42,070 nucleotides of DNA, from the NCBI GenBank assembly GCA_903922455.1, contig CAIXTT010000180.1, positions 1 to 42,070 of the forward strand. Direction: 5' to 3'. A program made the position numbers and the translations under genes. Shown here one piece after another: positions 21,606 to 25,251 of the stretch (the first letter of the stretch is position 1; each line of letters starts with the position of its first letter). The notes below the pieces were generated by a model. That model searched no databases. It worked only from the letters and a program-made list of their open reading frames with translations, and was not told the origin of the DNA. This stretch comes from an uncultured Bacteroidota bacterium (GTDB lineage Bacteria; Bacteroidota; Bacteroidia; AKYH767-A; OLB10).

Positions 21606-21620
21606 TTGGAGATTTGCGGG

Positions 21621-22907
21621 ATGAAAGAAGAGTTCTTGTATTATCTCTGGCAAAACAAGCTACTATTAAGAGATCCGCTTTTATTGGAAAGCGGAGAAAC
21701 GGTTGAAATTATTCATCCTGGAGTTCGGAATTTCGAAAGTGGTCCAGACTTTCACAATGCCCGCATTCGAATAGACAACATGATATGGGCTGGAAATATC
21801 GAGATTCATGTGAATTCCAGCGATTGGTTTAAGCATCACCATCAGGGTGATTTATCGTATGACAATATTTTACTTCACGTTGTTCATCAAAATGATAAAC
21901 CTGTACATCGGTTAGATGGAAGTAAAATTCCAACCTTAGTCATGAATGAAAAATACCCATTAGGATATTTATACCACTATGAAAACCTACTACAAGGTTG
22001 CCATTCCTTTATTCCGTGCGGACAACAATTTCAAGAAGTTCCATTTATCCATGTCCAAAGTTGGATGGACCGTGTACTTACAGAACGATTGGAAACGAGA
22101 TTTGAAGAATTGACTCATATCCATAAAGAATCGGACGCTCGATGGCCAAAAAGTCTTTATCAACTCCTTGCCAAATCTTTTGGATTTAAAGTAAATGCAG
22201 TTCCTTTTGAGTTATTAGCGAATGCAGTGCCCTATGAGCTCATGATCAAACATAGACATCAAATCGAATCTTTGGAGTCACTATACTATGGACAATCGGG
22301 AATGCTTCATACAACAGTAGATGATCCCTATATTGATCGTTTAAAAAAAGAGTATAAATATTTTCGGACGAAATACCATCTAAAAAACAACTCTCCTCAT
22401 CTTTGGAAATACGGGGGATTACGACCTGCGAATTTTCCCACATTACGAATTTCCCAATTCAGCATGTTACATTTTACCCATGAATATTTGCTTGACAAAA
22501 TCATACAGACCATAGAGCTTTCGGATTTAATAACGCTATTTGATATAAATGCTACGGATTATTGGTACCAGCACTTTCGGTTTGGAATCGCATCAGAACC
22601 ACATATAAAAAAGCTAGGCAAGGACGCCATACTTCACCTGATGATCAATGCCATTATCCCGTTCCTTTTTTTCTATGGTAAAAAGCAGAAACTACCTATA
22701 CTTTGCGATAAGGCTATCTATTGGTTGGAAAAATGTCCACCAGAAAAAAACAAAATCATACGATCTTTTGAGGATATTGGATTTTATATTACCAATTCAG
22801 CTCAAAGTCAGGCCCTATTGCACCTCAAAAAAAATTATTGTGATTACAAAAAATGTGTAAATTGCAGCATTGGAAACTACCTCTTAAAAAATGCAAACAC
22901 TAATTGA
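21621..22907 (+). CDS. DUF2851 family protein
   Basis: This 428-residue protein matches DUF2851, a conserved Bacteroidota family of unknown function. The signature N-terminus is present: KEEFLYYLWQNKLL, HPGVRNFESGPDFHNARIRI, and WAGNIEIHVNSSDWFKHHHQ, followed by DNILLHVV. The C-terminus has LLHLKKNYCDYKKCVNCSIG, with a C-x4-C-x2-C group that may bind metal. The ATG at 21621 is the likely start: an in-frame TTG at 21606 gives five extra residues outside the family pattern, and a degenerate GAGATTTG box sits four bases before the ATG. The conserved D...E-I-H arrangement recalls nuclease cores, but that is speculation. The gene overlaps the PspC-like gene by 17 bases, so the two are probably coupled. 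Confidence 0.85.
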   Translation: MKEEFLYYLWQNKLLLRDPLLLESGETVEIIHPGVRNFESGPDFHNARIRIDNMIWAGNIEIHVNSSDWFKHHHQGDLSYDNILLHVVHQNDKPVHRLDGSKIPTLVMNEKYPLGYLYHYENLLQGCHSFIPCGQQFQEVPFIHVQSWMDRVLTERLETRFEELTHIHKESDARWPKSLYQLLAKSFGFKVNAVPFELLANAVPYELMIKHRHQIESLESLYYGQSGMLHTTVDDPYIDRLKKEYKYFRTKYHLKNNSPHLWKYGGLRPANFPTLRISQFSMLHFTHEYLLDKIIQTIELSDLITLFDINATDYWYQHFRFGIASEPHIKKLGKDAILHLMINAIIPFLFFYGKKQKLPILCDKAIYWLEKCPPEKNKIIRSFEDIGFYITNSAQSQALLHLKKNYCDYKKCVNCSIGNYLLKNANTN

Positions 22908-23124
22908 AGAGATTAAAGCTTGGTTTGAGCAGCAAGCCTTTGGCGTATGTGAATGGTGGGGAGAAAAAATCAACATCCCTTCTGCTCAAATTCGGATGTT
23001 TTTTATTTACACGACCTTTCTCACGGTAGGTTCTCCAATCATTTTATATTTAACATTGGCTTTTTGGAAAAAAATGCGTGCATTGATCACAGAACAAAAG
23101 CGTGGAAGCGTTTGGGATTTGTAG
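22891..23124 (+). CDS. PspC-domain small membrane protein
   Basis: This 77-residue protein looks like a stand-alone PspC domain: an amphipathic start (MQTLIEEIKAWFEQQAFGVC), the short motif GVCEWWGEKINIPSAQIRMF, and one strong membrane segment (FLTVGSPIILYLTLAFW) with a basic tail. PspC domains are membrane components of phage-shock envelope stress responses, but the many single-domain copies in Bacteroidota are not characterised. No pspA or pspF-like gene is nearby. The start ATG lies inside the end of the DUF2851 gene (17-base overlap, different frame), suggesting co-translation. Confidence 0.75.
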   Translation: MQTLIEEIKAWFEQQAFGVCEWWGEKINIPSAQIRMFFIYTTFLTVGSPIILYLTLAFWKKMRALITEQKRGSVWDL

Positions 23125-23307: not shown

Positions 23308-24318
23308 ATGCACAAAAAGCACTTTCAATTCATAAAAAAACTGCGAATTGCTGCCATTATGACTCTTGGCACCATTGCCTTCGGGGTGATTGGCTTTATG
23401 GTCATCGAAGGGTACACATTCAGTGAAGCATTTTATACTACCATAATTATACTATCGACGGTAGGACTTGGTGTGGTACATACACTTTCCAATGCAGGAA
23501 GATGGTTTGTTTCCGTACTCATCATTATCAGCATAGGAATATTCGCATACGGCATAGCACAGATCACTTCATACATCATGGAAGGAGAAGTACAACGTTA
23601 TTTAAAATTAAAAAAAATCTTAAAAATGATCGGTAAAATTCAGGGACATGTAATCGTTTGTGGCTATGGAAGAAATGGCAAGCAGGCATGTAAACAATTA
23701 AGATCCCACAATCAAGATTTTGTGGTGATTGAAAATTCCGAAAAAGGAATTGAAGATTTAAGAGAAGATGATGAATTTCTATTTATTCAAGGCGATGCAA
23801 CTCGAGATGAAATATTGATTGAAGCGGGCATTGAAAAAGCGTGTGCCCTTATCACCACCTTACCCAGTGATGCCGCTAATGTTTTTGTAGTATTAACTGC
23901 AAGAGAATTGAGAAGTGACATTAAAATCATCAGTCGCGCTTCTGAATCATCCTCGGAAGGGAAATTGAGAAGGGCTGGAGCAGATAATGTAATCATGCCA
24001 GATAAGATTGGTGGATCTCACATGGCTACCTTAGTGACTAGACCTGATGTACTCGAATTTATTGATCATATCACAGGGAAGGTAAACATACGTTTAGAAG
24101 AGATCATGATCAACAAACTAAAAGAAATATACAAAGGAAAAACGATTCGGGAATTGGAAGTACGTAATCGTACAGGAGCCAATATTATTGGATTTAAAAC
24201 CAGCGAAGGCGAGTACATTATTAATCCGAGTCCGGACACAATCATGAAACCTGATTCGAAATTATTCGTATTAGGTACTAGTGAAGAGGTGGAAGAACTT
24301 ACGAAAGTTCTTTTTTAA
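23308..24318 (+). CDS. Two-segment potassium channel with RCK (TrkA-N/TrkA-C) domain, atypical filter
   Basis: This 336-residue protein has the layout of MthK/Kch-like channels: TM1 (about 12-33), a pore helix and filter (about 38-58), TM2 (about 65-90), then a cytoplasmic RCK domain with the nucleotide-binding motif IVCGYGRNGKQACKQL and a TrkA-C domain (about 250-336, ending LFVLGTSEEVEELTKVLF). RCK domains gate the pore in response to ligands such as NAD(H), ATP or Ca2+. The filter reads STVGLGVVHTL where the standard sequence is TVGYGD; both the Tyr and the Asp are replaced (L54, V56). I recall Bacteroidota relatives with TVGFGEVHPL, so partial divergence is known, but Leu and Val here are further away. 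Selectivity cannot be assumed. A TAACTTCG box sits right before the ATG. Confidence 0.88.
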   Translation: MHKKHFQFIKKLRIAAIMTLGTIAFGVIGFMVIEGYTFSEAFYTTIIILSTVGLGVVHTLSNAGRWFVSVLIIISIGIFAYGIAQITSYIMEGEVQRYLKLKKILKMIGKIQGHVIVCGYGRNGKQACKQLRSHNQDFVVIENSEKGIEDLREDDEFLFIQGDATRDEILIEAGIEKACALITTLPSDAANVFVVLTARELRSDIKIISRASESSSEGKLRRAGADNVIMPDKIGGSHMATLVTRPDVLEFIDHITGKVNIRLEEIMINKLKEIYKGKTIRELEVRNRTGANIIGFKTSEGEYIINPSPDTIMKPDSKLFVLGTSEEVEELTKVLF

Positions 24319-24339: not shown

Positions 24340-25251
24340 ATGAAAATTCTTATTACAGGTTCTAATGGTTTACTCGGGCAAAAGCTAATTTACGCTTTAT
24401 TAAACCGAAATGACATTACCATTATTGCGTGTGCAAGAGGAGAAAATAGAATCACTAGAAAAAATGGTTATCACTATGAATCATGTGATTTAAGTGATCA
24501 ATTTACCGTTACTGAAATAATCAAAAAGCATCAACCAGATTGCATTATCCATACCGCGGCGATGACCAATGTGGATGCATGCGAGCTCGATCCTATTTCC
24601 TGTCGGCGATACAATGTAGATGCCGTTCATTATTTAGTAGAGGCCTGTAAAGAATTTAAAACCCACTTTATAAATATTAGCACTGATTTTGTTTTTGATG
24701 GAACAGCGGGACCATACACCGAGGAAGATGTAGCAAATCCATTAAGTGTTTATGCACACTCCAAAATGGAGGGTGAAAAAATAGTGCTGGAAAGTGGTTT
24801 ACCATGGACGATATTACGCACCATGATTATTTATGGCGTTACTGATGATAAGCAAAGGTCGAACATCGTTTTATGGGCAAAGAAATCATTAGAAGAAGGA
24901 CAATCCATCAACGTCATCAATGATCAATTTAGAGGACCGACATTAGCAGAAGATTTAGCAGATGCATGTATAGTTGCTGCAATAAATAAAACACAAGGAT
25001 TATTTCATGTATCGGGGAAAGAAGTAATTTCCATTTTAGAAATTGCAGAGCGCGTTGCGGATTTTTTCGATCTAGATAAAAAATTCATTCAGCCTATTAC
25101 AACAGCATCGCTTAAGCAAGCCGCACTTCGACCATTAAAAACAGGATTTATTATTGAGAAGGCAGAACGCGAATTAAATTTTCATCCTTGTCGTTTAGAA
25201 GATGGATTGAAAGTAATATCAGAGCAGTTACTAAAACGACAAGAGGCTTAG
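24340..25251 (+). CDS. RfbD-like SDR (dTDP-4-dehydrorhamnose reductase family)
   Basis: This 303-residue protein is an extended short-chain reductase of the RmlD/RfbD type. The NAD(P)-binding motif GSNGLLGQKL is at the N-terminus, followed by HTAAMTNVDACELDP, INISTDFVFDGTAGPYTEED and the catalytic YxxxK in VYAHSKMEGEK. The true family member reduces dTDP-4-keto-rhamnose to dTDP-rhamnose, but rfbA, rfbB and rfbC are not in the window, and many Bacteroidota carry isolated relatives whose substrate is unknown. It follows the K+ channel gene by 21 bases on the same strand and ends 6 bases from the convergent gene. I therefore call the family and leave the substrate open. Confidence 0.8.
   Translation: MKILITGSNGLLGQKLIYALLNRNDITIIACARGENRITRKNGYHYESCDLSDQFTVTEIIKKHQPDCIIHTAAMTNVDACELDPISCRRYNVDAVHYLVEACKEFKTHFINISTDFVFDGTAGPYTEEDVANPLSVYAHSKMEGEKIVLESGLPWTILRTMIIYGVTDDKQRSNIVLWAKKSLEEGQSINVINDQFRGPTLAEDLADACIVAAINKTQGLFHVSGKEVISILEIAERVADFFDLDKKFIQPITTASLKQAALRPLKTGFIIEKAERELNFHPCRLEDGLKVISEQLLKRQEA

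Follow-up and report, generated by a model that had tools for sequence, protein, structure and literature searches.

A maintained TVGLGV selectivity filter in an MthK-type channel gene of an uncultured Bacteroidota bacterium

The window analysed here is the whole stretch of 42,070 nucleotides from contig CAIXTT010000180.1 (assembly GCA_903922455.1) of an uncultured Bacteroidota bacterium. It contains a channel gene flanked by a DUF2851 gene and an RmlD-like SDR gene (Table 1). The channel protein carries two membrane helices with a P-loop, an RCK-N domain and an RCK-C domain in one chain, which is the architecture of MthK-type 2TM-RCK channels. Pfam matches occur in the order Ion_trans_2 (residues 17-91, 36.6 bits against a cut-off of 22.5), TrkA_N (E = 1.4e-35, including GYGRNG) and TrkA_C, each above its cut-off, and the ORF has no frameshift or stop. 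Among PDB entries matched by sequence, GsuK was the best, and MthK matched over the full length. In an AlphaFold2 monomer (mean pLDDT 84.5, about 70 in the surroundings of the filter), M1, the pore helix, M2 and the RCK domain are visible, and MthK chains were the top structural matches. The gene is present in a single copy and encodes the sole Ion_trans_2 protein detected in the window's genome. The label "K+ channel", given in a preliminary description of this DNA, is a putative one based on homology. A small ORF (window 22891-23124, 77 aa) with a sub-threshold match to PspC overlaps the end of the DUF2851 gene; an ORF of similar size lies at the matching place in several relatives.

Table 1. 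Features of the channel gene and its neighbours in the window
Feature	Position	Strand	Basis
DUF2851 gene, conserved upstream neighbour of the channel	21606..22907	+	Pfam and synteny
MthK-type 2TM-RCK channel gene, 336 aa	23308..24318	+	ORF list and translation, Pfam, full-length MthK match
M1 helix, model residues 3-33	23314..23406	+	AlphaFold2 secondary structure
Pore helix, residues 38-51	23419..23460	+	Model and alignment columns
Tyr43 (KcsA 67, MthK Tyr51) and Ile48 (KcsA Thr72), within the pore helix		+	Alignment columns
Selectivity filter T51-V52-G53-L54-G55-V56 (KcsA 75-80)	23458..23475	+	Sequence, MthK register
M2 helix, residues 62-91	23491..23580	+	Model
RCK-N (TrkA_N), residues 115-231; GYGRNG at 23662-23679	23650..24000	+	Pfam
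RCK-C (TrkA_C), residues 274-334	24127..24309	+	Pfam
RmlD-like SDR gene, conserved downstream neighbour of the channel	24340..25251	+	Pfam and synteny

The pore stretch reads TTIIIL followed by S50, T51, V52, G53, L54, G55, V56, V57, H58, T59 and L60 (residues 49-60 are encoded at 23452-23487). Relative to the signature TxG[YF]GD, the protein retains T-x-G (T51, V52, G53) and the second glycine (Gly55, KcsA position 79), but the aromatic residue at position 78 is replaced with Leu54 (codon CTT, 23467-23469) and the acid at position 80 with Val56 (codon GTG, 23473-23475). The alignment with MthK, in which TVGYGD stands opposite TVGLGV, is gapless through the filter, so that the positions of Leu and Val are no alignment artefact and an error in the register of the pore is ruled out. 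The changes from Tyr to Leu and from Asp to Val had been placed exactly in the preliminary description. KcsA numbering is used below for positions in and around the filter.

TVGLGV was found in seven sequences of the same GTDB family, the window counted, and TVGLGT in one. Apart from the window's own, these sequences come from G001, which is a MAG binned separately and the neighbour within the genus, and from six further members of that family. All eight channels sit between a DUF2851 gene and an RmlD-like SDR gene, and they form one clade (ultrafast bootstrap 99, SH-aLRT 92). Their filter codons differ synonymously (CTT or TTA for Leu; GTG, GTA or GTT for Val), and the pairwise dN/dS of the channel gene is 0.03-0.12 for pairs with unsaturated dS. 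Because the locus is shared, the clade is single, the codon differences are synonymous and dN/dS is low, TVGLG[V/T] represents a selected trait of the subfamily and no error. The TVGLGV filter is evolutionarily maintained under strong purifying selection.

These results bear on three earlier statements. That Leu/Val might be a conserved subfamily trait is borne out by the seven locus relatives with TVGLGV or TVGLGT. The opposite case, in which this genome alone would differ, does not apply: separate MAGs carry TVGLG[V/T] at the same locus, which rules out an assembly error or an isolated mutation. That the channel is intact and not decayed agrees with the Pfam domains, the uninterrupted frame and the dN/dS values, and the latter, where dS is unsaturated, rule out a pseudogene. 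Within the same family, all that genome G014 retains of the channel is a C-terminal piece interrupted by two stops (C32:10176-10391), and the channel had no match in G002, G003 and several further genomes; the gene has therefore been lost repeatedly.

The filter was compared across 245 distinct relatives, made up of 205 unique sequences and 40 from outside the class. This set consists mostly of MAG sequences, includes near relatives and samples very thinly beyond Bacteroidota, with variant counts depending on the genomes sampled. Gly77 is present in 245/245 and Thr75 is almost invariant. Position 78 is occupied by Phe (172), Tyr (60), Leu (12) or Ile (1). Gly79 is kept in 98 sequences; in the 147 without it, the position is filled by R, Q, S, K, T, N, M, E, A, H or L. 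At position 80, Glu is found in 222 sequences and the canonical Asp never; position 67 is aromatic in every one of the 245. Apart from TVGLSA and TVGLSM, all sequences without Gly79 have Glu80. A FastTree tree computed with the filter columns left out requires at least 31 changes between Gly79 and other residues. Judged from the sequences, the outer half of the filter has been rewritten many times across this widespread family. Bacteroidota relatives with TVGFGE, mentioned in the preliminary description, do exist (31 of the 205 unique sequences), and the window channel is a step away from them, but TVGFGE is not the main type: most relatives lack the second glycine (TVGFQE, TVGFRE, TVGYRE, TVGFSE and others). 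The replacement of Gly79 with Glu80 retained, seen for example at L034, L035, L045, L052, L099 and L105, runs through the family and is a larger departure than the one described for the window channel.

In the tree of 205 sequences, the window clade has as its closest sister a group with TVGYRE, TVGFRE or TVGFAE. The pattern GFxE (Phe or Tyr at 78 and Glu80, with residue 79 free) is not that of the window channel, which has Leu78, Gly79 and Val80. By the evidence of tree and locus, the window channel derives from within the GFxE-type Bacteroidota family. It is odd within this family in that Gly79 is kept and the aromatic residue and the acid are lost.

As a control, Gly79 was present in all 59 other Bacteroidia Ion_trans_2 channels that we read (Kv-like, KirBac-like and small 2TM channels). 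A general drift of Gly79 across the pore channels of Bacteroidia is thereby ruled out, and the relaxation is specific to the MthK-type family. It is not limited to Bacteroidota, since a Rhodococcus plasmid channel has TVGFRE. Many KirBac-like channels of the same class have no acid at position 80 (G, R, K, A, H or F). Several single channels are unusual in other ways. A Hymenobacter monticola plasmid channel (L350:583-1638), annotated as a potassium channel, has SGGGYE in the filter region. L133, a small 2TM channel of 123 aa, has TVAYGD, with Ala at the first filter glycine, which is usually essential, and the second glycine kept. A haloarchaeal plasmid RCK protein (L351:826-2505) with TTGYGV represents a non-acidic position 80 in another RCK channel lineage. 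A Bacteroidota-type channel with its neighbours also occurs on a contig labelled "Euryarchaeota archaeon" (L092, PBNL01000009.1); this MAG is probably mislabelled or contaminated.

According to the trees, the 12 Leu78 channels belong to two or three lineages: the window clade, channels of the same family that lie at another locus and have TVGLGA or TVGLSA, and a channel with TVGLSM from a Flavobacteriales MAG. That Leu78 arose only once is unsupported: the careful tree requires two or more changes, and a single change suffices in 0 of 200 bootstrap trees. The acid at position 80 is missing in 12/12 Leu78 channels, compared to 11/193 others in the 205-sequence set, and the position of KcsA Thr72 is occupied by Ile or Val in 11/12 Leu78 channels, compared to Thr or Ser in 233/233 others. 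Tyr67 is present in every Leu78 protein. Fisher's test gave p = 1.6e-13 for the couplings 78-80 and 72-78, yet these amount to only three independent pairs, and a sign test cannot reach significance because there are only two or three independent origins. In KcsA, Tyr78 contacts Thr72. In MthK, the acid at position 80 (Asp64) bonds with Tyr51 (KcsA 67), and loss of this bond in simulations led to a filter that was wider at the second glycine (PMC10274084). The Leu78 channels thus give the impression of a repacked outer filter, with hydrophobic Leu78-Ile72 packing in place of a hydrogen-bonded strut and with the outer latch gone.

With middling confidence, we propose that the window protein is an RCK-gated, nucleotide-sensing cation channel that would conduct K+ through its inner filter and, owing to a softened outer filter, would show weaker selectivity and strong filter gating. 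It would form a tetrameric 2TM channel like MthK and GsuK and belong to a family, spread across Bacteroidota, with a rebuilt outer filter half. With Thr75-Val76-Gly77 kept, K+ would still be bound at the inner sites, about S2-S4. Leu78, resting on Ile72, would take the place of the Tyr78-Thr72 strut, and without an acid at position 80, Tyr43 (position 67) would be left without the partner by which the outer filter is pinned in MthK. The filter would thus be flexible at its outer end, Na+ would be less excluded and the filter itself would be able to gate. In GsuK, which has Phe in place of Tyr, PNa/PK is about 0.2 (PMC3510474); in TWIK1, Leu228 is among the residues that underlie Na+ permeability induced by acid, and the shift is lost in L228F (PMC11079055). 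Counting against a softened filter, the structural evidence is a monomer model with pLDDT of about 70 at the filter. Selectivity may also survive because the filter is lined by carbonyls, not side chains.

Opening would be set by a nucleotide (NAD+, ADP or similar, as in GsuK) at the Rossmann site of the RCK domain. The nucleotide motif GxGxxG is intact in the window protein; among the relatives, G119 and G121 are invariant and G124 is found in 243/245. The Ca2+ ligands of MthK, D184, E210 and E212, are replaced with T, R and S in the window protein, and MthK position 210 is Arg or Lys in 242/245 relatives. With these ligands missing, Ca2+ gating via the MthK site is ruled out. Two Kup genes are present in the window's genome, in which TrkH and KdpA had no match; therefore the window channel may be a regulated K+ leak, which would set membrane potential and pH alongside the two Kup uptake transporters. 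At another locus (L038:1330-4993), genes for a flavodoxin-fold (KefF-like) protein, a KefC-like antiporter and a TVGLGA channel lie in a row on one strand. The KefC-like and KefF-like genes directly before the channel fit a role in K+ transport, and the row is possibly a K+ efflux operon.

The same data may be read as those of an ordinary, well K+-selective channel, in which Leu78 and Val80 are tolerated by a carbonyl-lined filter and Ile72/Leu78 packing fully restores rigidity. The inner TVG is invariant, Gly79 is kept in the window clade, and position 80 is non-acidic in many KirBac-like channels of the same class; in addition, GLG is a filter sequence found among K2P K+ channels (PMC8616229), and at neutral pH TWIK1, which carries Leu228, selects for K+ (PMC11079055). 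However, the aromatic residue and the acid are lost together, which removes two supports of the outer filter, and weak selectivity is reported already with Phe in GsuK. In TWIK1, a K2P dimer, Leu is present in just two of the four pore loops, whereas here all four would have it. On balance, we consider full K+ selectivity rather doubtful. Quite unlikely, in our judgement, is a non-selective or differently selective cation channel of the kind seen in NaK, NaKTs or NirBac, passing Na+ and K+, NH4+ or divalent ions. A constitutively Na+-leaky pore would be costly to a bacterium, Gly79 is still present in the window protein, TVG is retained throughout the family, unlike in NaKTs, and the KefC-like neighbour in L038 suggests K+; what favours such a channel is that natural departures from TxGYGD in 2TM channels are non-selective (NaKTs, PMC5052707; NirBac, PMC4607889), that K+ selectivity is reported to be lost when the second glycine is mutated (work cited in PMC3283738) and that most of the window channel's family lacks this glycine. 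A silent pore, with the protein persisting as an RCK-based sensor or regulatory partner, is very improbable: although position 79 varies freely, canonical residues are lost and the gene is missing in several genomes of the family (a fragment with stops only in G014), the gene-wide dN/dS of 0.03-0.12 speaks against it, and a non-conducting pore would not keep M1, the pore helix, M2, Gly77 and the aromatic residue at 67.

The K+ filter TxGYGD is regarded as almost impossible to alter, and its second glycine is usually called invariant. Beyond the softened-filter reading of the window protein, we tentatively suggest that a large RCK-gated bacterial family retains only the inner T-V-G, with G-[F/Y]-x-E or G-L-[G/S]-hydrophobic plus Ile72 as the outer half; this may be a naturally occurring class of filter that selects and gates in its own way, and in which the second glycine would be dispensable provided that Glu80 is present. 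The literature searched, which excluded most subscription journals and the 2005 review of GYX filters, held no description of the GFxE family or its Leu78/Val80 branch, and a search by the family's filter strings, TVGLGV included, returned no channel paper. One scaffold of known fold thus offers many maintained filter variants with orderly co-substitution: position 79 is variable while position 80 is Glu, and Leu78 goes with Ile or Val at 72 and a non-acid at 80. Such variants bring an old question within reach of direct tests: which parts of the filter serve selectivity and which serve gating and stability only. They also call for caution, as domain matches alone are insufficient to annotate such genes as K+ channels.

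Among known systems, MthK (a Ca2+-gated K+ channel, PDB 1lnq) resembles the window protein in length and in its 2TM-P-loop pore with a single RCK domain (residues 4-332, E = 1.1e-32) but has TVGYGD instead of TVGLGV and the Ca2+ ligands that are replaced here. GsuK of Geobacter (an NAD+/ADP-activated K+ channel, PDB 4gx0/4gx5) shares the 2TM pore and an RCK with a nucleotide-binding site; its filter, TLGFGD, has Phe, not Tyr, at 78 and is weakly K+-selective, but GsuK has two RCK domains per subunit and keeps Gly79 and Asp80. GYX filters of prokaryotes and protozoa were noted earlier with no function assigned, according to PMC3283738 (citing Kuo 2005). As described there, their second glycine is replaced (GYSD/E, TIGYRD), like that of most of the window's family, whereas the window clade keeps Gly79 and loses the aromatic residue and the acid, and the protozoan GYX proteins belong to other channel families. 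TWIK1 (human K2P, GLG in one pore loop) also has Leu at the Tyr78 position and shows dynamic K+/Na+ selectivity. It differs in being a two-pore-domain dimer without RCK, with the other loop canonical at 78 and Asp230 kept after GLG; the window protein has one P-loop and two membrane helices per chain. NaKTs and NirBac are prokaryotic 2TM channels whose filters naturally depart from the canonical sequence, and both proved non-selective (PMC5052707, PMC4607889). Their filters differ in the inner half as well (PMGNGP, or pore loops that resemble no known filter), RCK is absent and few members are known, whereas the window protein keeps the inner TVG. Compared by architecture, not by filter sequence, actinobacterial CglK and MchK share the 2TM pore with a single RCK, as does the TVGFRE channel of the Rhodococcus plasmid, and deletion of MchK changes K+ need, growth with respect to pH and membrane potential (PMC9025972).
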